From: Adhaeribacter aquaticus DSM 16391
GTDB taxonomy: Bacteria; Bacteroidota; Bacteroidia; Cytophagales; Hymenobacteraceae
Length of the DNA stretch: 64,000 bases
Reading direction: 5' to 3'
NCBI RefSeq assembly: GCF_000473365.1
Contig: NZ_KI421517.1
Location: 124,001-188,000, forward strand
The notes beneath the pieces are model-generated. The model searched no databases, was not told where the DNA came from, and worked only from the letters and a program-made list of their open reading frames with translations. A program made the translations under genes and the position numbers. This document shows, piece after piece, positions 14,540 through 54,802 of this stretch; the first letter of the stretch is position 1, and each line of letters starts with the position of its first letter.

Positions 14540-14558
14540 ACAGACCCAATATTAAATT

Positions 14559-14590
14559 AAAAAAGGCCTGGTAATCCAGGCCTTTTTTTT
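14559..14590 (+). terminator. Rho-independent terminator after the carboxylesterase gene
   Basis: Stem AAAAAAGGCCTGG (14559-14571), 4-base loop TAAT and CCAGGCC followed by eight Ts (to 14590). Confidence 0.93.
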
Positions 14591-14639
14591 AGTCTCTTAA
14601 TTATAAAATGTCAACTCTCCATTTTCTATGGAAAGTATA

Positions 14640-15032: not shown

Positions 15033-15271
15033 GAGGCTATTAAATTAGATAAATTATATAATATAAGCAAAAAAAGCTTATTTTTGTTTTAATAATACAA
15101 ATTTAAGGTAAAATATTTACATTAATTTATATTTTAATATTTAGCTTTTATCTTCGCCACTACTGCAACAACTTTCGTACACGGTTAATTCATTTTGCTT
15201 ATAAAGAATATAAGCGTTTAATTCTATTTTTGTTTTAAACTATATCTGATCTTTTAACTAAACTTTTACAA

Positions 15272-15721: not shown

Positions 15722-15830
15722 AATCCTGTAGTAAAAATTAATTTGAGGTATATCAAAATTTCCGGCTGTTCGTTCATTTATCAAAAGCCTATGAAGGTTA
15801 GCTTCAAACTAAACGAATAGACCAGTTGGA

Positions 15831-38624: not shown

Positions 38625-40817
38625 TTATGGCAAAGCAAAAGCAATGTATTTGCCACCTGGTTTTAAGCCTCTGGCTCCACCAGCTGCAATTACCACATAT
38701 TGCTTACCACCGGCCATATACGTGATAGGGGTAGCAAAACCACCGGCTGGTAATTGGTATTCCCAAACAACTTTTCCTGTCTTTTTATCAAAAGCCCGGA
38801 TACGTTCGTCTCTGGTAGCAGCAATAAATACCAAACCACCTGCGGTAGAAACCGGTCCTCCATAACTTTCGGTGCCTGTAATTGGAATACCTTTTTTAGT
38901 TAATTCCGGGAACTCACCTAGAGGCACCCGCCATAAGTATTCACCAGTATTTAAGTCAATAGCATTAAGCGTGCCCCAAGGGGGTTTGATAGCCGGATAA
39001 CCGTTCTGATCAGTAAACCTTTTCCAAACTTTGTTTACATACTGCGGCACGTACGGGAAGCTTTGTTTACCAGCCTCCTGAGCCGGACCATTCTCAGCAT
39101 GTTCGCTGGCATCTTTATCGGCTGAGCTCTCTTTATTTAACAAGAACCGAACAATTGCGTCGCGGTTTTCTTTTGGAAGATGCGAGAAGGCGGGCATCCG
39201 ACCACTTCCTTTTTCCAGGAGCGCCATAATACCAGCGGCGTTGTATTTTTTATCTATATTTACTAAACTCGGGAAATCAGAGCCACTTCCTTTGCGGTCC
39301 CGGCCATGGCATACTGCACAGTTAGCCAGGTAAAAGCCATTACCTTTAGAAACGGAAGCAATCTCTTTGTTCCGGTCTTGTTGCGAAACCATTTGCAGAA
39401 TCCAGGGTTCATCATTGGAGTTCTGGTAAAGGATCCCACCCGGATCAATTGAGTTACCACCCCATTCTGCACCACCACTGTAACCAAACAAGATGGTACC
39501 TTTTTCGTTAGGCGGCGTAAATTTGTGATCGGTACGCATGGCTTCCCAACCTTTTTTCACATAATCATGGGCTTCCGGAGAGATGTTGGTGATATCATCG
39601 TCTGTAAACACCTGATGAGCAAACGGAGCTGGTTTTAACGGATACTTTTGCGTTGGGTAAGGATGTTCGCCTGGTAAACCATTAGTTGGAACTGGTCTTT
39701 CCTCTACCGGGAACAAAGACTCCCCGGTATCCCGGTTTAGTACATAAACCAAACCATCTTTAGTAGCCTGTACTACTACATCTACCATTTTGCCGTTATG
39801 TTTTACGGTAGTTAAGTTTGGCGGACACGGATGATCGCGGTCCCATAGGTCGTGGTGAATAGTTTGATAATGCCAAACGCGTTTACCGGTTTCGGCATCC
39901 AGTGCCATGATACAGGTAGCAAACAAATTAGCGCCTTCCCGATCGCCGCCATAAAAGTCAGAAGCAGGAGAACCAGTACCAAAATACACTGTACCCCGTT
40001 TTTCATCTAAAACAATACCGCTCCAATTATTAGCAGCACCAATGTATTTATAGGCATTTTTAGGCCAGGTATCATAACCATATTCGCCTGGTTGCGGAAT
40101 AGTATGGAAAACCCATTTTAATTTACCGGTTACCACATCAAAACCCCGCACGTGCCCCGGAGCAGCATCACCTGATTCCGACACACTTGAACCTACTACA
40201 AAAGTATTTTTATATACTATGCCAGGAGTGGTAGCGGTTACCGAAAGTTTACTTACATCATGGTCCATACCAGTCTGTAAACCATCATGTAAATCGGCCA
40301 TTCCATTTTTACCAAAAGATTCTATTTTAGAACCTGTTTTGGCATCAATAGCATATAGGTTAGATCCTACACTATATAATATACGTCTGTCGTCGCCATT
40401 TTCCCAATAAGCAACTCCCCGATTGGTATTAAATTTCTGATCGTCTTTCAGGGGCTCAAACCGCCAAAGTTGTTGGCCAGTTTTTGCATCAAGCGCAAAT
40501 AATTTTAATTCAGGTGTTGTTCCGTACAAAACACCTCTTACCACAATTGGCTGACATTGAATGGCTTTAGGTCCTTGGCGTTTAGCCGGATCTACTGGTT
40601 CAGATGCATCATACTCCCAGGCAATCTGCAGATTCTGCACATTCTCCAGGTTAATTTGGGTTAAAGGCGAATAACGGTTACCAGCTTTGTTGCCCCCATA
40701 ATTAGGGTAATCCAAATCTTTGATATTGGCACTAACCGCATTTTTATCCCTTCCGGGATTTACACAACTCCCTAACAGCAATAAGCCTATTGCCAAGGGT
40801 TTGATTGTATACTTCAT
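38625..40817 (-). CDS. PQQ-dependent dehydrogenase with an inserted cytochrome c site, lipoprotein
   Basis: An eight-bladed quinoprotein dehydrogenase of the glucose/alcohol dehydrogenase type (730 aa). Blade motifs include LFALDAKTGQQLWRF, IYAIDAKTGSK-type repeats, IMALDAETGKRVWHYQ and YVLNRDTGESLFPVEE. A cytochrome c domain interrupts the propeller: heme motif CAVCH at 500-504 with Met541 (SGRMPAF) as likely axial ligand, after which propeller sequence resumes (GTLNAIDLNTGEYLWRVPLGEF). A lipobox at Cys18 anchors it. It oxidises a sugar or alcohol in the periplasm and passes electrons to its own heme. It is the last gene of the minus-strand run that begins with the sigma factor at 54.8 kb. 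Confidence 0.9.
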   Translation of the reverse strand: MKYTIKPLAIGLLLLGSCVNPGRDKNAVSANIKDLDYPNYGGNKAGNRYSPLTQINLENVQNLQIAWEYDASEPVDPAKRQGPKAIQCQPIVVRGVLYGTTPELKLFALDAKTGQQLWRFEPLKDDQKFNTNRGVAYWENGDDRRILYSVGSNLYAIDAKTGSKIESFGKNGMADLHDGLQTGMDHDVSKLSVTATTPGIVYKNTFVVGSSVSESGDAAPGHVRGFDVVTGKLKWVFHTIPQPGEYGYDTWPKNAYKYIGAANNWSGIVLDEKRGTVYFGTGSPASDFYGGDREGANLFATCIMALDAETGKRVWHYQTIHHDLWDRDHPCPPNLTTVKHNGKMVDVVVQATKDGLVYVLNRDTGESLFPVEERPVPTNGLPGEHPYPTQKYPLKPAPFAHQVFTDDDITNISPEAHDYVKKGWEAMRTDHKFTPPNEKGTILFGYSGGAEWGGNSIDPGGILYQNSNDEPWILQMVSQQDRNKEIASVSKGNGFYLANCAVCHGRDRKGSGSDFPSLVNIDKKYNAAGIMALLEKGSGRMPAFSHLPKENRDAIVRFLLNKESSADKDASEHAENGPAQEAGKQSFPYVPQYVNKVWKRFTDQNGYPAIKPPWGTLNAIDLNTGEYLWRVPLGEFPELTKKGIPITGTESYGGPVSTAGGLVFIAATRDERIRAFDKKTGKVVWEYQLPAGGFATPITYMAGGKQYVVIAAGGARGLKPGGKYIAFALP

Positions 40818-41093: not shown

Positions 41094-42074
41094 TTATTTC
41101 TTATCCTTCACATAAAATTCGTAAGAATTTACCCATTTAAATTCCTGACCAGCTTGAGCTTTAACATTAATATAAGGTTCCGGGCAAGATGTTGTAGAAC
41201 TAGACCAGAAGATCATTTTAGCCAGAGGCTTATCTCCTTTAATTTTTACACCGGCCCCGGTTTTTAGATTTTCTATCTGAAAATTATAATCTTTTTCTGT
41301 AGCTCCATAACCTGTGATATCACCAAGGTATACATTCTCATTCCGCTTTAACTCCCGCAGATAATTTAGTTCGCTTCCGTTTATTTCGGCTACAGTACCA
41401 ATTCCCTGGCCTTTGCCCACAATGTCAAATGGAAATTTGATTTTTATAGCCGGGCCAGTTGGTTCTTTATCAATTACAAAAAAGTTGTGGTTGTATACAG
41501 TAGTTTCAATAAGCTTCTGCCCTGTATTTTTTAAGCTATGCTCTAAAACTAATTCAGGCTTACCCTTTACCAGTTTTACAGTTTTCCGGTAGATATAAGA
41601 ATACCCTGATGCATCTTTTAATTCATGCGTAAATTCTACTTTGTCTTTTCCTGGTTTCACTTTCCAGGTGCCGGCATTAGCAATATCATAAAGCGAAAAA
41701 ATAGAATAAGGTTTTTCATCTGCCTTACGTAACATTCCCACCCCAATTTTTAAAAACTCGCCCCCTACCGGAGCGGATTCATAACCTATTTGGGTAAACT
41801 CCTCAACCGGTCCGGTTATGGCATCATTTTTCTTTGGATCATATGTACCAAACCACTCTTCAAAATAACTATGTCCCTTATAATTTAAGGAATTAATAAT
41901 CCCTGACCAGTCAAAACGGGTTGCCTGGTAATATCCGGTTTCTTTATTTGGTAAGCTTAATTTAGCGCGTACCAAACCATTAGTAATTTCAACCTGCCGG
42001 GTATCAACAAGTGAAAAAGCAAAACTGAAAACGCTAAATAGTATAAAGCAAAAAAGGTAATTTCTTTTAACCAT
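41094..42074 (-). CDS. Secreted galactose-mutarotase-like beta-sandwich protein
   Basis: An exported protein (signal peptide about 1-21) of 326 aa with a pattern of many short beta strands. The order VRAKLSLPNKETGYYQATRFDWSG, VEFTHEL, YIYRKTVKLVKGKPELVLEHSLKN and TTVYNHNFFVIDK resembles aldose-1-epimerase/galactose mutarotase-fold proteins, with His in YNHNF near the position of a catalytic His. Family assignment is by pattern only. It sits between the PQQ dehydrogenase and the mannonate dehydratase-like cluster on the same strand, which supports a role on a sugar. Confidence 0.6.
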   Translation of the reverse strand: MVKRNYLFCFILFSVFSFAFSLVDTRQVEITNGLVRAKLSLPNKETGYYQATRFDWSGIINSLNYKGHSYFEEWFGTYDPKKNDAITGPVEEFTQIGYESAPVGGEFLKIGVGMLRKADEKPYSIFSLYDIANAGTWKVKPGKDKVEFTHELKDASGYSYIYRKTVKLVKGKPELVLEHSLKNTGQKLIETTVYNHNFFVIDKEPTGPAIKIKFPFDIVGKGQGIGTVAEINGSELNYLRELKRNENVYLGDITGYGATEKDYNFQIENLKTGAGVKIKGDKPLAKMIFWSSSTTSCPEPYINVKAQAGQEFKWVNSYEFYVKDKK

Positions 42075-42580: not shown

Positions 42581-42624
42581 TTTAAAGTTAACTGTTTGTT
42601 GAATTACAAACAGTTAACTTTAAA
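42581..42624. terminator. 19-bp perfect inverted repeat after the last dehydratase-like gene
   Basis: Arms 42581-42599 and 42606-42624 with a 6-base loop (TGAATT) lie 8 bases after the stop at 42633. It is AT-rich with a GTTAAC core. It is likely the operon's 3'-end terminator or stabiliser, though the T run is part of the stem. Confidence 0.75.
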
Positions 42625-42632
42625 CTTGCATT

Positions 42633-43796
42633 TTATGCTTTACGCGGTCCGGCTTTACTAACAGCTTCCATTAAGCCGCGCATATAACCAATGGCAAATA
42701 AATTACCTAATGCCATATAACCTGGGCGGGTGTTTTCTTCCCCGTACATGGTAGGCACGTGATCCGGACGAATTGAACCTTTGAAACCAATGTCATAGTA
42801 AGCCTTCATGGAGGCATACATATCTATCTGGCCTTCGTCGTGGAAGGTTTCGGTAAATTTGGTGCTAGGTAATTTTCCGCTTAAATCCTGAACATTCCGG
42901 AAGTGAACAAAATGAATTTTACCAGCTTTACCCCAGCGTCTGATTAAAGCTGGAATATCCGTTCCCATTAAAGAGAAGTTACCCTGGCATAAAGTAACGC
43001 CATTAAATTTGCTAGGCATTATTTTCAGAGCGCGGTCAAAGTTCTCTACCGTATTCATGATCCGTGGGATACCCTGGATGCTATGTACTTGTGGATCATC
43101 TGGGTGAAGCGCTAACTTCATTTCAATTTTTTCCGCTTCCGGTACTACTGCCTTCAGGAAATATTCCAAATTCTTCCACATGGCTTCTTTGGAAACTTCG
43201 CCGTATTGGGTAAGCGGCTTGTTTTTTACATCATCGTAATCAAAGGCTGTTACTAATGCTCCACCACGTCCAGGGCGGTCCATTTGGGTACGGGCCCAGC
43301 TAATTACCGGCATCCAGTTGTAGCAAATTACATCAACCCCGGCTCTTTTTAAGTTTTTCATGAAGGTGATGAAGTTAGAAATTTCTTCATCTCTTCCGGC
43401 TAAACCTAATTTAGTTTGTTCGCCAAGCGAAGGAGGCCCTTCCACGGTATTATAGTTTAATCCTACTTTTTTATAAGCATCCACCACACCCTTGATTGCT
43501 GGATACTCCCAAGGCTTAACGCCAGAAACTCCAGATAAACGGGGATCAATACCAGCAACTGCACCAACTGCATCAATTTGTTTTGCCAGTTCTACTAATT
43601 GCTTATTCGCCTCAATACCAGCAAAGTAAGCATTACTCATTTGCATCCCGGCATCTTTCGCCATGGATTGTAATTCAGCCTTGGCTTTAGCACTCTGAGC
43701 AAAAGATTCTGACACAGCAGAACCAACGCCTCCAATAGAAAGTGCCGCGGCCAAAGAAGCACTCTTTTTAATAAAATCTCTACGATTATCCTTCAT
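42633..43796 (-). CDS. Mannonate dehydratase-like TIM-barrel protein with Tat signal (copy D)
   Basis: A UxuA-family protein (387 aa); mannonate dehydratase converts D-mannonate to 2-keto-3-deoxygluconate. The metal ligands known for the family are conserved: His231 (HPDDP), Cys270 (LCQGN), His298 (VHFRN) and Asp345 (RPDH). The N terminus NRRDFIKKSASLAAAL is a twin-arginine signal, and a cleavage site (SFAQ, about 31-34) follows, so the folded metalloprotein should be exported to the periplasm. E. coli UxuA is cytosolic, so location is the odd feature. It is closely related to copies A and B, and the fourth in the cluster from the SusD side. Confidence 0.82.
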   Translation of the reverse strand: MKDNRRDFIKKSASLAAALSIGGVGSAVSESFAQSAKAKAELQSMAKDAGMQMSNAYFAGIEANKQLVELAKQIDAVGAVAGIDPRLSGVSGVKPWEYPAIKGVVDAYKKVGLNYNTVEGPPSLGEQTKLGLAGRDEEISNFITFMKNLKRAGVDVICYNWMPVISWARTQMDRPGRGGALVTAFDYDDVKNKPLTQYGEVSKEAMWKNLEYFLKAVVPEAEKIEMKLALHPDDPQVHSIQGIPRIMNTVENFDRALKIMPSKFNGVTLCQGNFSLMGTDIPALIRRWGKAGKIHFVHFRNVQDLSGKLPSTKFTETFHDEGQIDMYASMKAYYDIGFKGSIRPDHVPTMYGEENTRPGYMALGNLFAIGYMRGLMEAVSKAGPRKA

Positions 43797-43956
43797 CGTT
43801 TTTTGTTTGTTTAATAAATTTAGTGGCAGTTTAATCTTTCAGCATGTATAGGCAACTACAGAAAGATATACAAATAAGCATTTTTTTTTCTTTTAAGCAA
43901 CTTAACCGGGGAGTAGTTGAGGCTTTTAAAGCCATATCACTTTTTATTTCAGCAAC

Positions 43957-45129
43957 TTAAGCTTTTACCTTAGTTTTACTTACCGATTCGGCTAATGCGC
44001 GCATATACCCAATAGCATATAAAGTTCCTAAATCCATATAACCTGGCCGCTCATTGGTTTCGCCATACATAGTAGGTACGTGATCTGGCCGAATGGCTCC
44101 TTTGAAACCAATGTCATAGTAAGCCTGCATAGCGGCATACATATCTATCTGGCCTTCGTCGTGAAAGGTTTCGGTAAATTTGGTGCTAGGTAATTTACCA
44201 CTTAAATCCTGCACGTTTCTAAAGTGCACAAAGTTGATTTTACCTGCCTTACCCCAACGTCGGATTAAAGCCGGAATATCCGTTCCCATTAAAGAGAAGT
44301 TGCCCTGGCACATCGTTAAACCACTGTATTTATTAGGCATTATTTTCAGCATGCGGTCAAAATTTTCTACCGTATTCATGATACGTGGTACACCCTGAAT
44401 ACTGTCTACCTGCGGATCATCCGGGTGCAACGACAGGTTCATACCAATCTTCTCGGCCTCTGGTACCACAGCCTTTAAGAAATATTCCAGATTTTTCCAT
44501 AGAGCTTCCTTGGTAAAGGCTCCAAACTCGGTAAGCGGTTTATTTTTTACATCTTCGTAATCAAAAGCCGTAACTAAAGCCCCACCCCGTCCCGGGCGGT
44601 CCATTTGGGTACGCGCCCAGCTAATTACCGGCATCCAGTTGTAGCAAATTACATTTACTCCGGCTATTTCTTTCAGATTCTTCATAAAAGCAATAAAATT
44701 TGCTATTTCTTCATCTCTTCCGGCCAAACCTAATTTAGTTTGTTCACCTAAAGTTGGAGGTCCTTCCACTACGTTCCACTTCATACCTGTTTTATCCCAA
44801 GCTTCTTTTACCGTTTTAATAGCTTTAGGCTCCCAAGGTTTTAATCCTGCTAATAAAGGGTTTTCAGGTCTCAGGCTTGTTACAACGCCATTTACGCCCA
44901 TTTGTCTGGCAAAAGGAACCCTCTTGGAATCTACGGTTCTAATGGAAAGTGAAAACTCCATACCGGCATCTTTGGCCATACCAGCTAAATCTGCCTGCGA
45001 GGTAGGTTCCTTGCCTTCTTCTATGCTGGTAGCATTGGATTTAGAGGAGCAAGCATTTAATCCGGCCATTGAAATGGCTGCAGCCAAGGAGGCGCTTTTC
45101 TTTATAAAATCTCGGCGGTTATCTTTCAT
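43957..45129 (-). CDS. Mannonate dehydratase-like Tat lipoprotein (copy B)
   Basis: A second UxuA-family copy (390 aa) with all four metal ligands: His235, Cys274, His302 and Asp349. The twin-arginine segment NRRDFIKKSASL is the same as in copies A and D, but here the hydrophobic part ends in a lipobox (GLNAC, Cys27), predicting a Tat-exported lipoprotein. Downstream of about residue 115 it is nearly the same protein as copy D, while the N-terminal 100 residues of the mature part differ more. Nucleotide identity with copies A and D is high over long stretches, for example around the FHDEG and RPDH region. Confidence 0.82.
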   Translation of the reverse strand: MKDNRRDFIKKSASLAAAISMAGLNACSSKSNATSIEEGKEPTSQADLAGMAKDAGMEFSLSIRTVDSKRVPFARQMGVNGVVTSLRPENPLLAGLKPWEPKAIKTVKEAWDKTGMKWNVVEGPPTLGEQTKLGLAGRDEEIANFIAFMKNLKEIAGVNVICYNWMPVISWARTQMDRPGRGGALVTAFDYEDVKNKPLTEFGAFTKEALWKNLEYFLKAVVPEAEKIGMNLSLHPDDPQVDSIQGVPRIMNTVENFDRMLKIMPNKYSGLTMCQGNFSLMGTDIPALIRRWGKAGKINFVHFRNVQDLSGKLPSTKFTETFHDEGQIDMYAAMQAYYDIGFKGAIRPDHVPTMYGETNERPGYMDLGTLYAIGYMRALAESVSKTKVKA

Positions 45130-45199
45130 AAATAAATGTTTAGGTGAATTTTAGGGTGGATAATAGGGTTCGGATTGGTATTATTTTTAGGAAAGAAAT

Positions 45200-46393
45200 T
45201 TAAACTTTGGCTCCCGTGCCGTTGGCAGATACTACTGCCTGCATCATAGCTTTGGCGTATGCTACATTATACGCCTGGGCAGCATACCCGCCTCCTCCCG
45301 GATATTTGATTCCTCCGGGTTGCATTACCGTTCCGCCGGTATGTTCCCGGTCATAGTCTAATTCCCGCGGGTGCTCCGGATACAGGCCAAACTGGTAACC
45401 CTGTTGAAACACTTCCTGCATTACTGCAAACAGATTAACCTGGCCTTCATCAAAGAAAACCTCCTGGTACTTTACATAAGGTTTTTCAACGGTTACATTG
45501 CGGTAGTGCATGTGATTAATGCGATCGCGGGCCCCCATATACCGAAGTACTTCAATTGGATCCTCCCCTAATTCCCTGACTACGCCACAATCATAGGTCA
45601 TTCCGTTAGCCGGACTATCCACAATAGCAAGCAGGCGCTTCCAATCATTGAATGTGGCCAGAATTTGAGCATGCCCATGTGATACAGGAATTGGGGGATC
45701 ATTGGGATGCATGGCCATGCGTACTCCGGCTTTTTCTGCTACCGGAATTATGGCCTTTACCAGATAAGTTAAATTGTTCCAAAGACTTTCGGCCGTTTGT
45801 GGCGTACCTAAGGCCGGATCATGTGGCGCATCTTTACCTCTTTCGTAATCAAAAGCCGTAGTACCGGCTCCGCCCCGAGCTTTTACTTCATAATAGCCTT
45901 CCATCAGCCGGTGCGCATAAAAGTTATACTCTATTACTGGTAGCCCTGCTACTCCGGCTGCCCGGATAGAATCCTGCAGAAGCTTAATTTCTTCATCCCG
46001 GCCTTCCCGCCCGTAAACGGTATTTGGAAAGCCTCCAATCATCATGTTAATTACGGTTAGGCCTTCTGGTTTAAACCGGTCCATTATTTCCCGTAGCCCT
46101 TTTTCTGTCCAGGGCATTTTAGGTCCGTTTACCAACACATAATCAACTCCTAACTGTTTTAGCTTGCGCATTTCTGCCAATGAGGCATCCCGGTCAGCAA
46201 GTACACAAAGCTTGGGCATACCCTCCCCGAATGTTACCGGCCACTCTACCTGGCTGGTTGCACCCACCGATTTTAGCCCTGCCCTTTTCTCATTTTCTTT
46301 ACTTCTAGACTCCGAACAGCCACTTAAGCCGGCAACTGAAAGAGCAGCTAAAGCAGTACTTTTTATGATAAAATCTCTGCGGTTTTCTTTCAT
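45200..46393 (-). CDS. Divergent mannonate dehydratase-like Tat lipoprotein (copy C)
   Basis: A distant member of the cluster (397 aa) with the same Tat-type start (NRRDFIIKSTALAAL) and a lipobox at Cys26 (GLSGC). The first three metal ligands are kept: His229 (HPNDPP), Cys269 (YDCGV) and His296 (MHYRN). The fourth position reads YPEHP, so Glu340 replaces Asp in RPDH, and the Arg before it is lost. The segments GRDEEI and FFDEGQVNLF are shared with the other copies. The C terminus has a Gly-rich insertion (GGIKYPGGGGY). It lies between copies A and B. It may act on a different sugar acid or be a sugar-phosphate isomerase/epimerase-type enzyme. Confidence 0.75.
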   Translation of the reverse strand: MKENRRDFIIKSTALAALSVAGLSGCSESRSKENEKRAGLKSVGATSQVEWPVTFGEGMPKLCVLADRDASLAEMRKLKQLGVDYVLVNGPKMPWTEKGLREIMDRFKPEGLTVINMMIGGFPNTVYGREGRDEEIKLLQDSIRAAGVAGLPVIEYNFYAHRLMEGYYEVKARGGAGTTAFDYERGKDAPHDPALGTPQTAESLWNNLTYLVKAIIPVAEKAGVRMAMHPNDPPIPVSHGHAQILATFNDWKRLLAIVDSPANGMTYDCGVVRELGEDPIEVLRYMGARDRINHMHYRNVTVEKPYVKYQEVFFDEGQVNLFAVMQEVFQQGYQFGLYPEHPRELDYDREHTGGTVMQPGGIKYPGGGGYAAQAYNVAYAKAMMQAVVSANGTGAKV

Positions 46394-46426
46394 ATTTATT
46401 CTTTATTAGCCTATGAATTTGGAATA

Positions 46427-46456
46427 ACTCCGGCCCCCACTAAGCCGGGCCGGAGT
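46427..46456. other. GC-rich intercistronic hairpin between copies A and C
   Basis: A perfect 10-bp inverted repeat ACTCCGGCCC/GGGCCGGAGT (46427-46436 and 46447-46456) stands out from AT-rich surroundings. There is no T run on the minus strand, so it is more likely an mRNA stability or processing element than a terminator. Confidence 0.6.
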
Positions 46457-46494
46457 GTATTCTAAATTAAGACATACCCCTATATCTTATTTCT

Positions 46495-47631
46495 TTAGGC
46501 TTTCGCCCCAGCTTTGGCAATTGATTCAGCTAATCCACGCATGTAGCCAATGGCATACAGGGTGCCTAAGGTCATGTAGCCCGGGCGGGTGTTTTCTTCC
46601 CCGTACATGGTAGGCACGTGGTCTGGCCGGATAGTGCCTTTAAAGCCAATATCATAGTAGGCTTTCATAGAGGCATACATATCTATCTGGCCTTCGTCGT
46701 GGAAGGTCTCGGTGAATTTGGTACTAGGTATTTTACCGCTCAAATCCTGCACGTTCCTAAAATGCACAAAGTTTATCTTACCGGCCTTACCCCATCTTCT
46801 TATTAAAGCCGGAATATCAGCACCCATTAAGGAAAAGTTGCCCTGACACATGGTTAAACCGCTGTACTTACTCGGCATGATCTTGAGCATGCGGTCAAAG
46901 TTTTCGACACTGTTCATGATGCGGGATATACCCTGAATGCTGTGTACCTGCGGATCATCCGGGTGCAACGACAAGTTCATACCTATCTTCTCAGCTTCCG
47001 GTACAACTGCTTTCAGGAAGTACTCCAGGTTCTTCCACATGGCATCTTTTGAAACCTCGCCGTATTTTGTAAGTGGCTTATTTTTAATATCCTCATTATC
47101 AAAAGAAGTTACCAAAGCGCCTCCTCTACCGGGTCTGTCCATGGTAGTGCGGGCCCAGCTGATTACCGGCATCCAGTTATAACAGATTACATCTACCCCT
47201 CCGTATTGCTTCAGATTCTTCATGAAGGTAATGAAGTTACTGATCTCTTCATCTCTGCCAGATAGGGCCAGCTTGGTTTGCTCACCTAAAGAGGGTGGCC
47301 CTTCCACTACGGTCCATTTCATACCTTCTTTCTCCCAGGCTTCTTTCGTTGCTTTTATAGCTTCTGGGTCCCATGGTTTTAGTCCTTCTATACGTTTTAC
47401 CCCCGATACTGCATGCATGACATCTATTTGCTTGGCATAAGGTACCCGGGGCGAATCCGGACTCATGGCAAAGGCAAACTTCATTCCCCCGTCTCTGGCA
47501 AAAGCCTTGGCTGAGGCGGGAGCTTTATTCGCTGCCTGGGTTTGGGAAAAAGCAGTTGTTACGCCGCCAACTGATAAGGCTGCCGCTAAGGAAGCACTTT
47601 TCTTAATAAAATCTCTTCTATTGTCTTTCAT
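46495..47631 (-). CDS. Mannonate dehydratase-like TIM-barrel protein with Tat signal (copy A)
   Basis: The first of four UxuA-family genes after SusD (378 aa). Ligands His223, Cys262, His290 and Asp337 are all present, in HPDDP, MCQGN, VHFRN and RPDH. The N terminus has the same NRRDFIKKSASLAAAL twin-arginine signal, with a cleavable site around residues 28-35 and no lipobox. It follows SusD by 91 bases that contain a perfect hairpin. Its position directly behind the SusCD pair suggests that the SusCD substrate, or a product of it, is the enzyme's substrate. Confidence 0.82.
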   Translation of the reverse strand: MKDNRRDFIKKSASLAAALSVGGVTTAFSQTQAANKAPASAKAFARDGGMKFAFAMSPDSPRVPYAKQIDVMHAVSGVKRIEGLKPWDPEAIKATKEAWEKEGMKWTVVEGPPSLGEQTKLALSGRDEEISNFITFMKNLKQYGGVDVICYNWMPVISWARTTMDRPGRGGALVTSFDNEDIKNKPLTKYGEVSKDAMWKNLEYFLKAVVPEAEKIGMNLSLHPDDPQVHSIQGISRIMNSVENFDRMLKIMPSKYSGLTMCQGNFSLMGADIPALIRRWGKAGKINFVHFRNVQDLSGKIPSTKFTETFHDEGQIDMYASMKAYYDIGFKGTIRPDHVPTMYGEENTRPGYMTLGTLYAIGYMRGLAESIAKAGAKA

Positions 47632-47677
47632 GATAATTTAATTTGGTGGTGGAAATTATTTGCGGGAAAGAGAAGAA

Positions 47678-47707
47678 TGTCTTGTCCTGATTAATCAGGA
47701 CAAGACA
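47678..47707 (-). terminator. Hairpin between susD and the dehydratase-like genes
   Basis: A perfect 13-bp stem (47678-47690 and 47695-47707, TGTCTTGTCCTGA) with a 4-base loop lies 15 bases after the SusD stop. On the minus strand it is followed by TTCTTCTCTTT, a weak T-rich tail, so it may act as a partial terminator that lowers expression of the enzymes relative to SusCD. Confidence 0.65.
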
Positions 47708-47722
47708 ATAAATTATTGGTAG

Positions 47723-49327
47723 TTATTGCTTATCCCACCAAACGCGGGTAGTATATAAATCCGGGCCCTGGTTTTTAATAGCGTTTTCTACACTTGCTGT
47801 ATTCAATGATTTTTCCTCGAAGGAATACATCAGGCGTCTTAAAGGCTGTCCGCCTGTAGCATTTAAAGGATAATTAATGGTCTGAAGATTTGGTACACCT
47901 GTCCGGCGCCAGTTAGACCAGGCTTCGAAAAAGTCTAAATACATATAATGAGCCAGGTAAAACTGGGTATGTATCTGTCTGAATTTCTCTTCATCGCTAC
48001 CTGTTAACGGATGAGAGGCGATATATTCGGCAATTTCAGCTGGTGTTATAACCACATTAGCCACTGAACTGTTAGGATACAAAGTAGAAGACTCCATATT
48101 TGCTCTGATGCCTTTGTGGTAATGCTCTTCTGCTGTACCAGGGCCCCAACCTCTTAAAGCTGCTTCTGCCAATAAAAACTCTACTTCTGAGTAACTTAAA
48201 ATAATAGATGGCGCAGAAAAATTGGCTATGGTAGCTGTATTTGGCTCTGATAATTCTTTTAGCATTTCATTCTTCCAACCCGGAATGGCTGTAGCAATGG
48301 TGTTCGGATCATAACCATTAGGCAAGGCTTTTTGCTTATCAGCCGCAGTAGTTTGTGCAATAACCTGTCCCTGTCTGGCATCAATGTTACCTTCCCATAA
48401 AGTCATGTAAAAAGGTATGCGGGGATCGTTATTAGCCTGCAGTAAATCCAGAAAAGTTTTTCCCATTTTTACCAAACCTAAGCCTTGATTCCCTTCCGGT
48501 AAACTTTCCCTTTTCAGCTCACGGGCATCCCAGTTCCAGGTATTTTCATTATTAGGCGCATGTCTTAGTAAGGCTATATCAGCATTACTTTGAATTAGCC
48601 CTCCGGCAATAGCTTTTTGGGCCCACTCTTTTGCCATAGCTGGATCCACCTTGGTTAATCGCATAGCTAAACGTAGCATTAATGAATACCCAAAAGATTT
48701 CCATTTTGGCACACTTCCATTATAAATAACATCCGCTGCCCCAAACGAAGCTTTAGCAGGATCTAATTGCTTAAGGGCCGCCTCTAAATCCTGTAGCATC
48801 CACGGATAAATCTCTGATTGCTTATCGTAAGCAGGCTTGAATTTACCTTCGGGGGCCCCGACCGCTTCTTTGTAAGGCACATCGCCGTAGGCATCTGTAA
48901 CCCGATGTAAAGCGAATATTCTCCAGATTTTGGCCATGCCATTTTGGTTTACCAAATCCGGCTTATTTTCTGTTTCCTTGATAATGACCATTAACTCCCG
49001 CAAATGAGAGGTATAAACCGTCTCAAAAAAGTTGCCGGTCTGGGCGTTTACAATACCTTTTTCTCCATACCAGAAGTTTTGTAAAGTAGCATGATATTGC
49101 ATAATACCCGAAGCAAACTTAATGTTGGTGCGGTTCCGGTCATTTGTTCCGGTACCAACGGTTCTGATTAAGCTATTGGTAAACAATGGCCCCACAGCTG
49201 GCTGCGTATAAGCATTCGGATTGATGTTCATTTCCTCGAACCCCTTATCACAAGAAGTTAAGAGCATAACTGCCAGTACTCCTGTTTTTATAGTTACAGC
49301 GGCAATTTTGTTTTTTATATAATTCAT
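47723..49327 (-). CDS. susD: SusD/RagB-like nutrient-binding outer membrane lipoprotein
   Basis: A 534-residue SusD-like protein of the branch starting CDKGFEEMNINPN, with lipobox Cys26. It is mostly helical with the TPR-like scaffold of the family (for example MAKIWRIFALHRVTDAYGDVPYKEA at about 124-148, positions of the conserved YGDVPY motif). It caps the SusC barrel on the cell surface and binds the oligosaccharide or glycoside to be imported. It is immediately downstream of susC (49 bases) and precedes the dehydratase-like enzymes. Confidence 0.93.
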   Translation of the reverse strand: MNYIKNKIAAVTIKTGVLAVMLLTSCDKGFEEMNINPNAYTQPAVGPLFTNSLIRTVGTGTNDRNRTNIKFASGIMQYHATLQNFWYGEKGIVNAQTGNFFETVYTSHLRELMVIIKETENKPDLVNQNGMAKIWRIFALHRVTDAYGDVPYKEAVGAPEGKFKPAYDKQSEIYPWMLQDLEAALKQLDPAKASFGAADVIYNGSVPKWKSFGYSLMLRLAMRLTKVDPAMAKEWAQKAIAGGLIQSNADIALLRHAPNNENTWNWDARELKRESLPEGNQGLGLVKMGKTFLDLLQANNDPRIPFYMTLWEGNIDARQGQVIAQTTAADKQKALPNGYDPNTIATAIPGWKNEMLKELSEPNTATIANFSAPSIILSYSEVEFLLAEAALRGWGPGTAEEHYHKGIRANMESSTLYPNSSVANVVITPAEIAEYIASHPLTGSDEEKFRQIHTQFYLAHYMYLDFFEAWSNWRRTGVPNLQTINYPLNATGGQPLRRLMYSFEEKSLNTASVENAIKNQGPDLYTTRVWWDKQ

Positions 49328-49376
49328 AAATTAGGTAATTAAAGATTTTGTGATGAACAATCTTTTCAGCTAAATA

Positions 49377-52300
49377 TTAAAGTCTAATGCTAAGATTAAA
49401 GCCATAAGTGCGGGTAGAAGGCAACCCAAAATTTTCTAACCCCTGCGCATTTCCACTGCTGTAGTTGGCTTCGGGATCTACGTGTTTGGTAGTTCTGTAA
49501 AGAATTAACAGGTTACGCCCCACAAAGGAAACATTAGCTGATTGGAAAGGCGTTTTGGATAATAAAGAAGCTGGTAAATTATATCCTAAGCTTAAAGACC
49601 GAAGTTTTATAAAGTCTGCTTTTTCTACAAATTCGCTGGTAATGCTGTTCCACAAACCTTTGTAATAGGTTTCGGCCGGAACGGTTCTGGTAAACGCTTC
49701 TCCTTTTTCGTTTACACCATTAACTGTTACACCGGTTTCCCGCACGTTATTTTCAACGGTACGCTTATCTAATCCAAATTGTGTTCCGTAGGCACTGGTT
49801 GCCGAATAAATACTTCCGCCCCACCGGCTATCTAATAAAATGCTCAGGTTAAAATTTTTGTAATTGAAATCATTATTTAACCCTATTGCTAATGGAGGAA
49901 CGCCTTTACCTAATGGAACAATTGGGCTGGCAATTGGCAGACCATTAGAGCTGTTATAGATAATCTGGCCATTGGCATTTCTGGAATAAGTACTGCCGGC
50001 AATCATACCGAAAGGCTGCCCCTGGTAATGCGTAATCCAACCGTTTTCGGTTCTGGTAGTAGCCCCTGGCAAACGCAAGCTGGTTAATCCTAAATCCGGC
50101 GCAATTGAAATTACTTCGTTTTTATTATAGGCCATGTTGTAGGTAATATTCCAGGCTAAGCCACTTTCTGTTTTTATTGGCGTACCGTTCAACATTAACT
50201 CAACGCCCCGGTTTTTCATTTTACCCACATTCAAGGCCACAGCTGTATAACCACTGGCATGAGGAAGGGAGGCGTTTACTATATCATTGGTAGTAGTCCG
50301 GTCATATACCGTTAAATCTACACCAATGCGGTTATTGAACAACCGGGTTTCTATCCCGGCTTCAGCAGTTGTAGAAGTATAAGGCGTTAATAAAGTAGGT
50401 AAAGTAGCGCTGGTAACATTCATTAATGTTTGTCCTAAATGCTGCTGCGATTGTGCAGAATAGGTTTGGGTAATGGCATAGGCGTTAGGAGCACCACCAC
50501 CAACCTGCGCCCAGGAAGTTCTAACTTTAGCATAATCTAACCAGGCTGGCTTGGTATTCCAGGCATCGGAAGCAACAAAGCTTAACCCAACAGATGGGTA
50601 AAATAAGCTGTTACCTTTTGGGGTTAATGTAGAAAACCAATCATTACGACCAGTTAAGGTTAAATATAAGTAATTGTTGAAATCAATATCGGCAGAAGCA
50701 AACAAAGAGTTTATACCGAATTGGCTATAATTAATACCAAAGTTTTGGCTCCGGCCATTGGCAATAAAATACTCGTTCGGGCGGTTAAACTGACCACTGG
50801 TAAGGTTAATTCCATCAAATGAATTACGCATTTGGTTTCCACCACCCAATAAATTTACTGTAAACCGGCCAATGTCTTTTTTAAAGCCGAGCGTTCCTTC
50901 AATGTTGGTCTCGCCTTGTAAACTCTGATCCGTGGTCATGGAACCTGGCTGGTTAAAAGCTAAACCTGTTGGCTGAATAGCATAGCCATCAAAATTAATT
51001 TGATCTATACCAAAGCGGGCACGGGCATAAAAGAAGTCGGTAATATTATAAGTAGTACTGAAAGAGCCTATAAACCGTTTTTTAGTATCTCCATTTCTTA
51101 CTTTGTTTATTGCAAAATAAGGATTGGTAGCATATTCATAATCACTCCATTTAAACTCGTTGCCATTGGGTAAATAGCCGGGAGCCAGTGTCCGAACATC
51201 GATGTTATTTGCCAGCAGTTGTGCACCAGTATTAGGGTTTAACTGAAAATCTGCCAAATAAGTACGATTCTTAACATCTTCAATATTGTACTGGGCATTT
51301 CCTTCAAACACAATCTTTTTAGATAAAGTAGCGCTGGCACTTAAATTGAAGGTTTTGATATTCATCGTATTATTAGGAATAATAGCCTTGTTATCTAAAT
51401 TGGAAGCTGAAAAACGAAATCTTGCTACTTCATTGCCTCCAGATAGTGCCAGGGTATTCACGAAGTTAGTACCAGTCTGATAGAAATTTCTAAAGTTGTT
51501 GCGCTGCGCAGCATAAGGTCTGGTTTGTCCATCTGGTTGAATTACCGCAGACCCATCTAATTTGGCACCCCACGACATTCTGCCATTGGCAATAGCCTGA
51601 GCCTGGGTAGTTGGAGCTACTCCCTGCGAACCTGAACCATATTGGTATTGCCAGTCTAACAGGTTAATGGCTTGTTGAAAGGTATAGTTAGTGTTATACT
51701 CTACTCCTAATCCTTTTTGGACACTGCCAGATTTAGTGGTAATTAAGATTACCCCATTTGCTGCCCTGGCACCATAAAGTGCCGCAGCCGTACCACCCTT
51801 TAATACTGAAATACTTTCAATATCATCCGGGTTAATACTGGCTAAACCATCTCCACGATCAATTCCACCAAAAGTACCTGCAGATCCCTGGTTATTGTTG
51901 GTGATGGGCATACCATTTACCACATATAAAGGCTGGTTATTACCATTTAAAGAACCATTACCCCGAATAATGATACGGCTTGAACCAGCCGGCCCACCTG
52001 AGGTGCCGGAAGCTGTAACTCCGGCCACTCTACCGGCTAACGCATTTCCAACATTTATTTCCCTGGCTCTGTTTAAGTTTTCACCGCCTACCTCAGACAC
52101 CGCATAAGTTAAAGCTTTCTTCTCTCTTTTAATACCCAAAGCTGTTACCACAATTTCATCTAAGGCTTTGGAATCATCTGCTAAAGCAACATTAATGGTT
52201 GCATTGCCATTAAAAGGTACCTCTTTAGAGGTAAAACCAATAAACGAGAAAACCAATATCCCATTATTAGCAGGTGTACTTAATGAGTAAGAACCATCAG

Positions 52301-52829
52301 CCTGGGAAGTTGTACCAGTTGTTGTACCTTTAACCAGTACTGTAACCCCGGCTAAAGCTTCTCCGGCTACCGAAGTAATTTTACCAGTAATAGTAGAAGC
52401 GGCAACTTCTATTTTGGACTCTAACTGGCTGATACTTTCTTCATCTCCTTTAACTGCGCTACTGGTAGTAACCCGTTTTAAAACAATTTCTCCGCCTATT
52501 GGCTCATAATCTATTCGTAAAGGAGTAAGTAAATCACTCAGAACTTTAGCTAATTTCTGGTTACTTACATTGATGGAAACTTTGCGGGTGGCCGGGATAA
52601 GCTGAGGACTGTACACAAAATGAATCCCGCTCCGGTTTTCTATTTCACTTAAAACTGTTTTTAATTCAGTATTATTCATTTTAACTGAAATAGGCAGATT
52701 AAGTGCTTCCTGAGCTTTGCTATTTTTAGCGAGAACCGTGGTGGTAAGTAAACATAAGAGTAATATTTGAGCTAAAGCATTTTTCGAAAACTTTAACCAT
52801 AACTCTCGTTTAATAAAAGTAATTTTCAT
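49377..52829 (-). CDS. susC: SusC/RagA TonB-linked outer membrane transporter with STN signalling domain
   Basis: A 1150-residue TonB-dependent transporter. After the signal peptide (about 1-40) comes an STN domain (about 45-118), which in other systems contacts FecR to signal substrate binding. Then a carboxypeptidase-D regulatory-like domain (about 146-232), the TonB box/plug start (EIVVTALGIKREKKAL), the plug (to about 365, ending with the family's GAAANGVILITTK-type segment) and a 22-strand barrel. The STN domain fits the sigma/anti-sigma pair encoded upstream, which makes this a trans-envelope regulated transporter. The barrel ends in an aromatic-rich FNLSIRL. Confidence 0.95.
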   Translation of the reverse strand: MKITFIKRELWLKFSKNALAQILLLCLLTTTVLAKNSKAQEALNLPISVKMNNTELKTVLSEIENRSGIHFVYSPQLIPATRKVSINVSNQKLAKVLSDLLTPLRIDYEPIGGEIVLKRVTTSSAVKGDEESISQLESKIEVAASTITGKITSVAGEALAGVTVLVKGTTTGTTSQADGSYSLSTPANNGILVFSFIGFTSKEVPFNGNATINVALADDSKALDEIVVTALGIKREKKALTYAVSEVGGENLNRAREINVGNALAGRVAGVTASGTSGGPAGSSRIIIRGNGSLNGNNQPLYVVNGMPITNNNQGSAGTFGGIDRGDGLASINPDDIESISVLKGGTAAALYGARAANGVILITTKSGSVQKGLGVEYNTNYTFQQAINLLDWQYQYGSGSQGVAPTTQAQAIANGRMSWGAKLDGSAVIQPDGQTRPYAAQRNNFRNFYQTGTNFVNTLALSGGNEVARFRFSASNLDNKAIIPNNTMNIKTFNLSASATLSKKIVFEGNAQYNIEDVKNRTYLADFQLNPNTGAQLLANNIDVRTLAPGYLPNGNEFKWSDYEYATNPYFAINKVRNGDTKKRFIGSFSTTYNITDFFYARARFGIDQINFDGYAIQPTGLAFNQPGSMTTDQSLQGETNIEGTLGFKKDIGRFTVNLLGGGNQMRNSFDGINLTSGQFNRPNEYFIANGRSQNFGINYSQFGINSLFASADIDFNNYLYLTLTGRNDWFSTLTPKGNSLFYPSVGLSFVASDAWNTKPAWLDYAKVRTSWAQVGGGAPNAYAITQTYSAQSQQHLGQTLMNVTSATLPTLLTPYTSTTAEAGIETRLFNNRIGVDLTVYDRTTTNDIVNASLPHASGYTAVALNVGKMKNRGVELMLNGTPIKTESGLAWNITYNMAYNKNEVISIAPDLGLTSLRLPGATTRTENGWITHYQGQPFGMIAGSTYSRNANGQIIYNSSNGLPIASPIVPLGKGVPPLAIGLNNDFNYKNFNLSILLDSRWGGSIYSATSAYGTQFGLDKRTVENNVRETGVTVNGVNEKGEAFTRTVPAETYYKGLWNSITSEFVEKADFIKLRSLSLGYNLPASLLSKTPFQSANVSFVGRNLLILYRTTKHVDPEANYSSGNAQGLENFGLPSTRTYGFNLSIRL

Positions 52830-52887
52830 AAATTTGTTTGTTTTGTTGAGTTAGTTTGCATAAAGACCAATTAGGACAAGACATAGT

Positions 52888-52962
52888 AATTCCTGGCATC
52901 GGCAAATGCATGGAATTGAAAGCGTAGGATGAGCAGATAGTGGTAGGACACCATCTGCTCAT
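52888..52962. other. Two hairpins in the fecR-susC spacer
   Basis: One inverted repeat pairs 52888-52899 with 52906-52917 (AATTCC...GCAT / ATGC...GGAATT, 10 of 12 positions). A second pairs 52929-52938 with 52953-52962 (ATGAGCAGAT/ATCTGCTCAT, perfect). The T-rich tail of the second lies on the plus strand, where no gene ends, so they are more likely leader structures of the susC mRNA than a fecR terminator. Confidence 0.55.
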
Positions 52963-53032
52963 TTTCTTTTTGATAAGTAATTTCTACATCATAGGCATCT
53001 ATAAGTATTTTAAATAAATATGAAAGGAGCTA

Positions 53033-54085
53033 TTAATCTTTACATCCTCTTCCGGCTATTATATATTTAAAGTCGTCTGTTTTATAGTTAGCCCCGATAG
53101 ATAAACAAATCATTTCTAGTTTCACATCAACCGGCTGATATAAAAATGAAGCAGTCAGCTTACAATTTTTAAGTTCCGGATTCATGAATTTTATGGAAAC
53201 CTTGTATTGGTTTTCTAATCGGCTTATTACCTCTTCTAATGGTGTATTATTAAAAGTTAGCTTTTCTACATTTTGAATACTAGCCCAATAAGCCGGGTCT
53301 AAATTTGCCTTCTCTAACTTTGCTGACGCTGGTTCTAAAACAGCCTTCTGGTTTTTTACCAGGCAAATCACCTGCTTTTTATCTTCAGAAAACAAAGCAG
53401 CAACTTTAGGTTTAGGAACAGCTACTGCCACTTTACCGCTTCTTACTAATACCTCAGATTTTTTACCTTCCCCGTTAAAATCTACACTAAAGCTTGTTCC
53501 CAAAACTTTTATAGCCATTTTGTGTCCATAAACCCAGAAAGGTCGCCTGGCATCTTTCGCTACATCAAAAAAAACTTTCCCCTTTACTACTACATCACGT
53601 TTATTATCGCTAAAGACGGCTGGGTAACTTATACTGGAACCTGGCTCCAGCCACACAATAGACCCATCGCCTAGCGAAACTCTTTGGGTACCAGAAGAAA
53701 AATTATGTTTCTCAGCATAAGCAATTCTTTTTAGCTCTAAACTTATGGCATATTTATAATTATAAGCACCTAAACCCAGGGTTAATAACAGCATTGCAGC
53801 AATACTTAACCACTGTACCTTATTACTATTAAAAGCTAACTTATTTTTTTGTGCAGGACCTATTATTACCGGCTGCCCGATTTCAGTTAATTTATTTTGG
53901 ATATCTTCCCAATTCTTAGCCTGCTGTTGTTCTAAATCAGACGGAGACACTTCAGGAATAATAAATCGTGATTTTCCTAATTCATTATACCAATCTGAAA
54001 TAGTTGCCTCTTCTTCCGGAGAACTGGTACCAGCCAGGTACTTATCAATAAGTTTTTCCAGATTTTCCTGTTCCTTATTTTCCAT
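53033..54085 (-). CDS. fecR: FecR-family anti-sigma factor
   Basis: An inner-membrane anti-sigma regulator of 350 aa. The cytosolic N-terminal part (about 1-85) should hold the sigma factor. One membrane helix lies at about 91-107. The periplasmic FecR domain (about 125-225, with SLGDGSIVWLEPGS and FFDVAKDARRPFWV) is followed by a C-terminal DUF4974 domain (about 275-345, with LTFNNTPLEEVISRLENQY). The DUF4974 part is related to the STN fold and receives the signal from the SusC STN domain. It is encoded 141 bases downstream of its sigma factor and 203 bases upstream of susC. Confidence 0.93.
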   Translation of the reverse strand: MENKEQENLEKLIDKYLAGTSSPEEEATISDWYNELGKSRFIIPEVSPSDLEQQQAKNWEDIQNKLTEIGQPVIIGPAQKNKLAFNSNKVQWLSIAAMLLLTLGLGAYNYKYAISLELKRIAYAEKHNFSSGTQRVSLGDGSIVWLEPGSSISYPAVFSDNKRDVVVKGKVFFDVAKDARRPFWVYGHKMAIKVLGTSFSVDFNGEGKKSEVLVRSGKVAVAVPKPKVAALFSEDKKQVICLVKNQKAVLEPASAKLEKANLDPAYWASIQNVEKLTFNNTPLEEVISRLENQYKVSIKFMNPELKNCKLTASFLYQPVDVKLEMICLSIGANYKTDDFKYIIAGRGCKD

Positions 54086-54226
54086 ATAAGAGGAGCTCGA
54101 TCATAATTTAGAGGCAGATTCAATAGTAAAGCCAGCTACCGAAGCGCTAACCCTAAAAAAATAAATAAATATTTTAAAATAATTTTCAGATATGGCTAAA
54201 GCCGCTACCTAGGTAACCAGAGTCAG

Positions 54227-54802
54227 TTAAGAAAGAAATGAAAACGCTATTGCCGGAACGACAAAATCTTTTAAGAACCCTCGCAAGTGTTTTAAAGCTT
54301 TTGTAATATGATATTCTACAGCTTTGTCTGTTAGCTGCATATCTGTGGCAATTTCTTGTGTAGTTTGGTTGTGAAGCCGGCTTTTTTCAAAGACTTGCCG
54401 GGATTTAGTTGATAATGAGTCCAGGCCCTGCTTAAATTTAATCTCTAATTCCCCTGCAACAACTGCTTCCTCGGTACAATTAGTTGATGCGTTTGAATTA
54501 AGCGTTAATTTGTAGTTGTTTCTGACCGTCTGGGCCTGGTAATAATTAATAATAATGTATTTAATGGCAGAAAATAAATAAGCCTCTAAGCTGCTATTTA
54601 TTTGAACTGTCTTCCTCTTTACCCAAAGGTTTAAGAACAATTCCTGAACAAGCTCTTCTGCAATTTCTTTTACACCAATCTTGCGGTAGGCCACTGCGTA
54701 TAATTTAGACCAATACCGGTTATATATTTCTTTAAACGCATTCCCATCCTCTCCCCAAAGGGCAGAAAGTAGTTCTTCATCGTTTAAATTCTTGTATATC
54801 AA
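54227..54802 (-). CDS. ECF RNA polymerase sigma factor, FecI/Bacteroidota type
   Basis: A 191-residue extracytoplasmic-function sigma factor with region 2 at about 22-88 (FKEIYNRYWSKLYAVAYR, then ELVQELFLNLWVKR) and region 4 at about 125-175 (TTQEIATDMQLTDKAVEYHITKAL). It should direct transcription of the susCD operon once FecR releases it. The start is a TTG at 54802. The only upstream ATG is followed by an in-frame stop after two codons, and no internal ATG would keep region 2 intact. The TTG may keep expression low. Confidence 0.92.
   Translation of the reverse strand: MIYKNLNDEELLSALWGEDGNAFKEIYNRYWSKLYAVAYRKIGVKEIAEELVQELFLNLWVKRKTVQINSSLEAYLFSAIKYIIINYYQAQTVRNNYKLTLNSNASTNCTEEAVVAGELEIKFKQGLDSLSTKSRQVFEKSRLHNQTTQEIATDMQLTDKAVEYHITKALKHLRGFLKDFVVPAIAFSFLS

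Follow-up and report, generated by a model that had tools for sequence, protein, structure and literature searches.

The stretch of DNA analyzed here (the window, 64,000 nucleotides) corresponds to positions 124001 to 188000 of the largest contig of the 5.17-Mb genome of Adhaeribacter aquaticus DSM 16391 (G000 in our labels). Within it, eight genes spanning 42633-54802, all on the minus strand, encode an extracytoplasmic function (ECF) sigma factor, a FecR anti-sigma factor, a SusC/SusD outer-membrane importer and four proteins of the UxuA (mannonate dehydratase) family, D, C, B and A, with export signals of the twin-arginine translocation (Tat) type. We propose that this locus probably takes part in the breakdown of sugar acids outside the cytoplasm. 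An initial annotation of the window had given the same gene order, strand and coordinates, and its family assignments were confirmed by Pfam and NCBIfam searches. The eight genes are as follows.

54227-54802, minus strand: ECF sigma factor of the Bacteroidetes type, TTG start (TIGR02985, Sig70_bacteroi1, 136 bits; cut-off, 126.4).
53033-54085, minus strand: FecR anti-sigma factor (PF04773, FecR, and PF16344, FecR_C).
49377-52829, minus strand: SusC TonB-dependent transporter with an N-terminal STN domain (TIGR04056, OMP_RagA_SusC, 648 bits).
47723-49327, minus strand: SusD lipoprotein, SusD-like_2 (PF12771, 264 bits).
46495-47631, minus strand: gene D, M-type (ManD-like) Tat-type putative dehydratase (PF03786, 274 bits).
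45200-46393, minus strand: gene C, C-type divergent ManD-fold protein with a Tat motif and a lipobox (PF03786, 124 bits).
43957-45129, minus strand: gene B, M-type, Tat-type, possible lipoprotein at Cys27 (PF03786, 265 bits).
42633-43796, minus strand: gene A, M-type, Tat-type (PF03786, 277 bits).

The STN signaling domain of SusC scored 29.2 bits with PF07660, barely above the cut-off of 28.4. Sigma/FecR regulation and a SusC/SusD pair are shared with the polysaccharide utilization loci (PULs) of Bacteroidota. Unlike a PUL, however, the locus has no glycoside hydrolase or polysaccharide lyase; a Pfam search found no glycan-cleaving family among the eight genes, and the enzymes that they encode resemble sugar-acid dehydratases. 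A gene for a GH3 plus beta-lactamase-domain fusion lies on the same strand outside the locus, at 32960-35944.

The products of genes A to D all exceed the gathering cut-off of PF03786 (23.7), so that the description of four UxuA-like enzymes in the initial annotation holds for family membership. It does not hold for a single enzyme type, because the metal and catalytic positions of C are altered. By BLAST, A, B and D share 72 to 74% identity with one another, and they pass the NF003027 subfamily cut-off of 191 (248, 246 and 248 bits, respectively), whereas C is only 27 to 32% identical to them and fails it (106 bits). Gene D matches the solved ManD structure 3ban (E = 8.8e-45) and keeps the active-site residues H223, C262, H290, D337, H338 and Y352, and the ManD positions are likewise kept in A, B and D alike. 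Across 87 M-type proteins, E110, R161, H223, D226, H290, R292, E308, D337, H338 and Y352 are invariant, and K120 and C262 are each kept in 86; these counts leave out L057, a far outlier on the tree, and L100_2_1015, which groups with unexported cognates (with both, n = 89). The conserved positions are expected to have the ligand and acid/base roles assigned in ManD structures.

The C-type proteins form a clade of their own (eight members; SH-aLRT, 100). All eight have Asp in place of the ligand Cys, Glu in place of the ligand Asp and Gly in place of the Tyr, and the idea that all four window proteins are mannonate dehydratases was rejected for C on the basis of these three positions. A C-type profile nonetheless matched only ManD chains in the PDB at an E value of 0.001 (3ban, 1tz9 and 4eac). 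Both types lack about 58 residues of canonical cytosolic UxuA: the segment between the D178 and W199 columns has 20 to 23 residues in M-type, C-type and cytosolic cognate proteins versus 79 to 80 in 12 canonical UxuA proteins. The xylose-isomerase-like barrel model AP_endonuc_2 matches all four window proteins, and its cut-off of 31.1 is passed by C alone (52.8 bits). In a quick tree, which carried a warning that long branches meet, 49 exported M-type proteins formed one clade (support, 98) apart from canonical UxuA; two rows labeled M (L057 and L100_2_1015) fell outside it, and the label M needs three changes on that tree.

A C-type gene adjoins an M-type gene in seven SusCD loci (the window locus, L048, L060, L065, L066, L099 and L198; L numbers denote the stretches fetched for comparison), and the eighth C-type gene is an orphan elsewhere in the A. 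aquaticus genome. The type is rare: samples of 291 genomes from the order and 395 from the phylum yielded two carriers each (G000 and G177 in the order, G000 and G395 in the phylum). The other five genomes of the order that passed the search threshold have M-type matches. A. aquaticus also carries two canonical UxuA genes that encode no signal.

All four window proteins open with the NRRDFI motif, as the initial annotation had it, and the motif type is nearly universal in the clade: a twin-arginine pair was found in 93 of the 100 proteins of at least 325 amino acids in their cluster (cluster 0) and in 21 of 23 proteins of the enolase superfamily (MR_MLE), against none of 12 canonical UxuA proteins. 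The dedicated Tat model TIGR01409 (cut-off, 16.7) was passed by A (19.6), B (17.7) and D (19.9) and did not match C; the Pfam TAT_signal model scored below its cut-off for A, B and D and was absent for C. Cysteines lie at the two positions named earlier, and by eye the lipobox of C (LSG-Cys26) is good and that of B (LNA-Cys27) is weaker. The genome encodes TatC (224.5 bits). For the cluster of RraA proteins that recur beside M-type genes (see below), the median best 12-residue N-terminal hydropathy was 2.64, with 22 of 22 at 1.4 or above. An unexported cluster of RraA proteins gave a median of 0.61 (0 of 5), and canonical UxuA gave 0.73 (0 of 12). This measure is a crude one, in that three of five PfkB kinases also reach 1.4.

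Relatives of these genes, exported or not, were confirmed at no fewer than 575 places in a scan of genome contigs, and the best 80 were kept for locus comparison. An exported M-type gene was recognized in 73 of them, and the counts that follow are for its same-strand run, which reaches the edge of the fetched DNA in 33 cases. The seven loci left out were L077 and L120 (truncated or with a wrong start), L134 and L135 (lost by the open reading frame filter) and L136 to L138 (unexported); L135, read separately, has an RR motif and is still outside the 73. Genes were grouped by single-linkage clustering of BLAST matches, and each cluster took its name from the one or few members scanned, so SusC or SusD proteins of other lineages can be missed. 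The runs contained genes for RraA-like proteins (18), SusD (17), SusC (16), MR_MLE proteins (16), FecR (11), pyrroloquinoline quinone (PQQ)-dependent dehydrogenases (8), SBF-type transporters (8), glucuronyl-esterase-like proteins (6) and GFO/IDH/MocA proteins (4). SusC or SusD was present in 18 runs, at least one of RraA, MR_MLE, PQQ and SBF in 23, and both groups in 9. Among 20 control loci of canonical UxuA from the same order, one run had RraA and MR_MLE, none had SusC and one had SusD; in four of them, SusC was present in the stretch but outside the run. Fisher tests of exported-M against control runs gave p values of 0.012 and 0.044, with kinship ignored and controls from one order.

The linkage also appeared from the side of RraA. 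Within 19 kb of 20 hand-picked RraA genes of the order, one per genome, MR_MLE genes were found at 17 loci (at four of these on the other strand only), SusC and SusD at 13 each and SBF at 11. The RraA family occurred in seven of seven genomes with a full-length exported M-type protein (E < 1e-130), compared with 62 of all 291 genomes (p = 1.5e-5, not corrected for kinship). An exported dehydratase-like gene and an RraA-like gene stand together in 18 of the 73 runs, in L198 and in L135, and not in the window locus. The link to SusCD implied by the initial annotation recurs elsewhere (18 of 73 runs, and in G177 at L048 and G395 at L198) but is not general, since 55 of the 73 runs lack SusC and SusD. 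Gene sets of a related kind are present in other members of the Bacteroidota and in a single genome of the Planctomycetota.

Several loci show the range of these sets. In G177, a genome of the same genus, L048 reads sigma, FecR, SusC, SusD, M, C, M, which is the window order minus one M; its SusC is split into three frames (12923-16388), by sequencing error or decay. L198, in G395, comes from a different class of the phylum, and a single strand there carries sigma, FecR, SusC, SusD, C, M, RraA, MR_MLE, SBF, MR_MLE, PQQ and an SGL lactonase. L066, in a metagenome-assembled genome (MAG) of Flavobacteriaceae, has sigma, FecR, SusC, SusD, C, M, M, MR_MLE, RraA, PQQ, SBF, a PfkB kinase and an aldolase of the 2-keto-3-deoxy-6-phosphogluconate (KDPG) type. 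In L135, from a Planctomycetota MAG, MR_MLE, RraA and M are consecutive, with export-type N-termini by eye. Genes of exported lactonase type are found beside PQQ in L198 (SGL) and beside M in L079 (PF10282), and the six glucuronyl-esterase-like genes beside M belong to five Cyclobacterium loci and one Lunatibacter locus. The lack of glycan-cleaving enzymes, noted earlier for the window locus, holds there but not for all relatives: the same-strand run of L084 carries GH127 and GH43 and that of L063 carries GH3. Because such genes were seen in only two of the five relatives scanned for extra genes (ten proteins from L063, L065, L066, L079 and L084), we did not adopt them as a defining part. At L049 of G177 and L055 of G180, a lid-less ManD-like gene and an RraA-like gene, both of the unexported kind, lie beside UxaC and SDR genes, which suggests that dehydratase and RraA may act at successive steps of hexuronate use.

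Two further recurrences concern the neighbors of M-type genes. Proteins of one family are encoded next to the exported M gene in L062, L063, L064, L067, L069, L086, L087, L100 and L133; the sole member scanned (L100) has DUF362 and a regulator-type propeller. In Dyadobacter (L104, L109, L112, L114 and L115), a single M gene directly follows sigma, FecR, SusC and SusD, and in four of these five loci it is followed by a protein of about 315 amino acids (cluster 51).

Elsewhere in the A. aquaticus genome, at G000:C1 2069026-2094451, a single SusCD pair precedes six MR_MLE genes, three exported RraA genes and four more MR_MLE genes, a striking expansion. Nearby (to 2104308; L167, L168 and L169) are genes for two aldehyde dehydrogenases, an FAH-family protein, one further MR_MLE and one further RraA protein, and SBF. 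The FAH protein and aldehyde dehydrogenases were considered as cytosolic enzymes of a Weimberg-type route; they match general families or sub-cut-off models only and are kept as a lead. The genome has 22 MR_MLE matches in total. Of the 20 in fetched stretches, 17 have the strict twin-arginine pattern, and an RR pair falls within the first 70 residues of 19. All five RraA proteins have a hydrophobic N-terminus by the crude test that PfkB kinases also pass in three of five cases. A second MR_MLE/SusCD island (L171-L172, G000:C1 3664813-3686409) lies beside a KDPG-type aldolase gene. Identical 452-amino-acid MR_MLE proteins are encoded at G000:C1 3685051-3686409 and 1012239-1013597, indicating a recent duplication. 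An exported RraA-like gene lies close to a second PQQ dehydrogenase gene on one strand (L173, G000:C1 950451-955151). Finally, a UxuA remnant, a 53-residue frame with a stop, was found at L059 7945-8130 (G000:C1 3275944-3276129), beside a gene that is UxaC-like by eye.

The initial annotation had ended the system at 42633. It seems to be wider and may reach 38625. Four further features belong to the region.

47678-47707, minus strand: hairpin with a 13-bp stem between SusD and gene D (pattern match only).
42581-42624, no strand assigned: A/T-rich inverted repeat of 19 pairs, terminator-like, directly after gene A (pattern match only).
41094-42074, minus strand: galactose-mutarotase-fold protein with a signal-type N-terminus (membership of the system likely).
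38625-40817, minus strand: PQQ-dependent dehydrogenase with a cytochrome c domain and a lipoprotein-type signal (PF01011, 632 bits, and PF13442; membership likely).

The region has 22 terminator-like sites (18.3 expected; standard deviation, 5.2), and a promoter scan showed no excess (43 matches versus 44.8 in shuffled sequences). The 41094-42074 protein had no Pfam or NCBIfam match up to an E value of 1, and it was assigned by fold to the galactose mutarotase superfamily. Relatives of the PQQ dehydrogenase account for the eight runs counted above and occur also in L198. The mutarotase-fold and PQQ genes are likely to belong to the functional neighborhood. An SGL (gluconolactonase-like) protein with a lipoprotein-type signal, encoded at 30870-31805, 7 kb beyond the PQQ gene, is a possible partner; we did not adopt it as a member, given that distance and only 30% identity to the L198 lactonase, and it had no match at an E value of 1e-8 among the proteins of the clustered loci.

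Taken together, the gene content, export-signal motifs, active-site residues and recurrent linkage, all read directly from the DNA, lead us to favor, with a probability of roughly 0.6, a SusCD-fed, extracytoplasmic, nonphosphorylative catabolism of sugar acids that precedes uptake across the inner membrane. From them we infer the substrates, the reaction of each enzyme, the order of steps, the localization, the part of RraA as aldolase and the role of the two downstream genes, as follows. The ECF sigma/FecR pair, signaled through the STN domain of SusC, would switch the operon on, and SusCD would bring a sugar acid, or a sugar for later oxidation, into the periplasm. The neighboring mutarotase-fold protein and PQQ dehydrogenase would oxidize an imported sugar, and lactone opening would come after this oxidation and before dehydration. 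The Tat-exported M-type enzymes would convert an aldonate to a 2-keto-3-deoxy acid, and the C-type partner may carry out a related metal-dependent step, perhaps epimerization or dehydration of another stereoisomer. In related loci and elsewhere in the A. aquaticus genome, dehydration would fall to Tat-type MR_MLE dehydratases. Where RraA is present, exported RraA-like aldolases would cleave the keto-acid, yielding pyruvate plus an aldehyde. The keto-acid or the pyruvate would then be imported by an SBF-type symporter or by an MFS transporter closest to the galactonate family. The best models for SBF were PanS/BASS and that for the MFS neighbor was the D-galactonate transporter family, all under cut-off. 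The window locus would itself supply dehydration and probably oxidation, with the remaining steps coming from other loci of the genome. The glucuronyl-esterase-like genes (six loci), the GH127 and GH43 genes of L084 and the UxaC genes beside the cytosolic cognates make uronic or aldonic acids released from plant cell walls candidate substrates.

We also put forward, tentatively and at slightly short of even odds, a complete nonphosphorylative Entner-Doudoroff-like pathway outside the cytoplasm in Bacteroidota, running from SusCD import to SBF uptake of pyruvate. In such a pathway, mutarotase, PQQ dehydrogenase and lactonase would make the aldonate, Tat-exported dehydratases of two unrelated folds, the ManD-type barrel and the enolase type, would dehydrate it, and exported RraA-type aldolases would release pyruvate; the window locus would represent the ManD-fold branch. 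Chemistry of the central-carbon type would then sit in the periplasm.

Several observations weigh against extracytoplasmic catabolism as the function of the locus. The window locus has no RraA, MR_MLE or SBF gene, and none of its four UxuA-family proteins passes the UxuA equivalog TIGR00695 (cut-off, 199.55; A, 174.1; B, 165.9; C, 84.5; D, 175.7 bits). Named-function models for the PQQ, SBF, MFS, RraA and MR_MLE neighbors were mostly under their cut-offs. Neither SusC/SusD nor RraA/MR_MLE/PQQ/SBF is present in 41 of the 73 runs, and the linkage is therefore not obligatory. The SusD of L198 matches PF07980/PF14322 and that of the window PF12771, so the transporter pairs are not all of one lineage. 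The terminator-like repeat and a 558-bp gap part gene A from the mutarotase-fold and PQQ genes, and the repeat suggests that these two genes perhaps form a separate transcript. Finally, a search for PqqE, the only pqq gene sought, found nothing over cut-off in the A. aquaticus genome (three sub-cut-off matches; all 14 control genomes also gave matches below it), and the PQQ enzyme would therefore need a scavenged cofactor.

Other explanations were weighed against the same data. The exported ManD-fold proteins could be isomerases, epimerases or lyases whose substrates in the periplasm are oligosaccharides, keto-glycosides or uronates, with loss of the 58-residue segment opening the active site to larger substrates. 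The short segment, the altered Cys, Asp and Tyr positions of the C-type, the AP_endonuc_2 matches and the GFO/IDH/MocA genes in four of the 73 runs all fit this idea. We nevertheless consider it unlikely, because the M-type proteins keep the ManD residues examined, unexported cognates without the same segment adjoin UxaC in L049 and L055, and MR_MLE and RraA are the commonest neighbors among the enzyme families counted. It is less probable still that the wider system handles aromatic or hydroxy-acid products, with the barrels processing lignin-derived acids and the RraA-like proteins acting as 4-hydroxy-4-methyl-2-oxoglutarate or CHA-type aldolases or as oxaloacetate decarboxylases. RraA proteins indeed matched best the uncharacterized subfamily NF006093, then an FAH-family model and then CHA-aldolase/oxaloacetate-decarboxylase and further models, all below cut-off, and a Dioxygenase_C gene lies near the G177 locus (L048 4015-4752). 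The neighbors point the other way: MR_MLE proteins scored highest with models of galactonate or mannonate dehydratase (one protein of four passed the cut-off), the MFS protein was closest to galactonate transporters, as noted, and the PQQ dehydrogenase to the glucose/quinate family (the latter two under cut-off), and PfkB kinase, KDPG aldolase and lactonase genes are present in single loci.

That the exported barrels might be noncatalytic sugar-acid binding or sensor proteins of a SusCD complex is suggested by the four tandem copies, two of them possible lipoproteins, that adjoin SusD; because metal and acid/base residues are almost fully conserved across the 87 M-type proteins, this is very improbable. 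Hardly credible is an ordinary cytosolic UxuA with a misread N-terminus. The Pfam TAT_signal results would allow it, but the RR extension is conserved in the clade, three of the four proteins pass TIGR01409, and the canonical UxuA proteins of the same genome lack the extension. An ordinary cytosolic UxuA cluster was accordingly rejected on the conserved Tat extension together with the missing segment. We conclude that the observation is real and wider than the initial annotation had it and that the mechanism proposed from these sequences, extracytoplasmic sugar-acid catabolism, is coherent.

Compared with cytosolic UxuA/ManD (PF03786; PDB entries 3ban, 1tz9 and 4eac), A, B and D share the fold family and the active-site positions compared, but the window proteins have a Tat-type signal, lack the 58-residue segment and fall below the equivalog cut-off, and C has altered ligands and no catalytic Tyr. 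Nonphosphorylative Entner-Doudoroff and Weimberg-Dahms pathways use a lactonase, an aldonate dehydratase and a 2-keto-3-deoxy acid aldolase. The gene sets described here appear to follow the same logic, but the enzymes bear export signals and sit with an outer-membrane importer, and the aldolase-like genes are of the RraA type. PQQ dehydrogenases carry out direct oxidation of sugars in the periplasm, and a PQQ-family dehydrogenase with a cytochrome c domain is also found near the window locus, where, in contrast, dehydration would come next in the same compartment. To our knowledge, the dehydration of sugar acids and the aldol cleavage that follows are assigned to the cytosol. Among the matches listed in a search of open-licence literature, titles and abstract beginnings mentioned no exported mannonate-dehydratase-like, RraA-like or MR_MLE proteins in SusCD loci; a prior description of the system may exist, most subscription papers and preprints lying outside that search. 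A published account of Gramella PULs includes UxuA among other hexuronate genes (PMC4891872).

If the proposed catabolism is real, two unrelated folds would serve one exported role. It would help to account for SusCD operons with many dehydratase and RraA genes (SusC and SusD are present at 13 of the 20 chosen RraA loci) and would provide testable substrates for many unexplained exported proteins among the 575 or more relatives, exported or not. If these reactions are periplasmic, SusCD loci would host small-molecule catabolic routes and not glycan cleavage alone.

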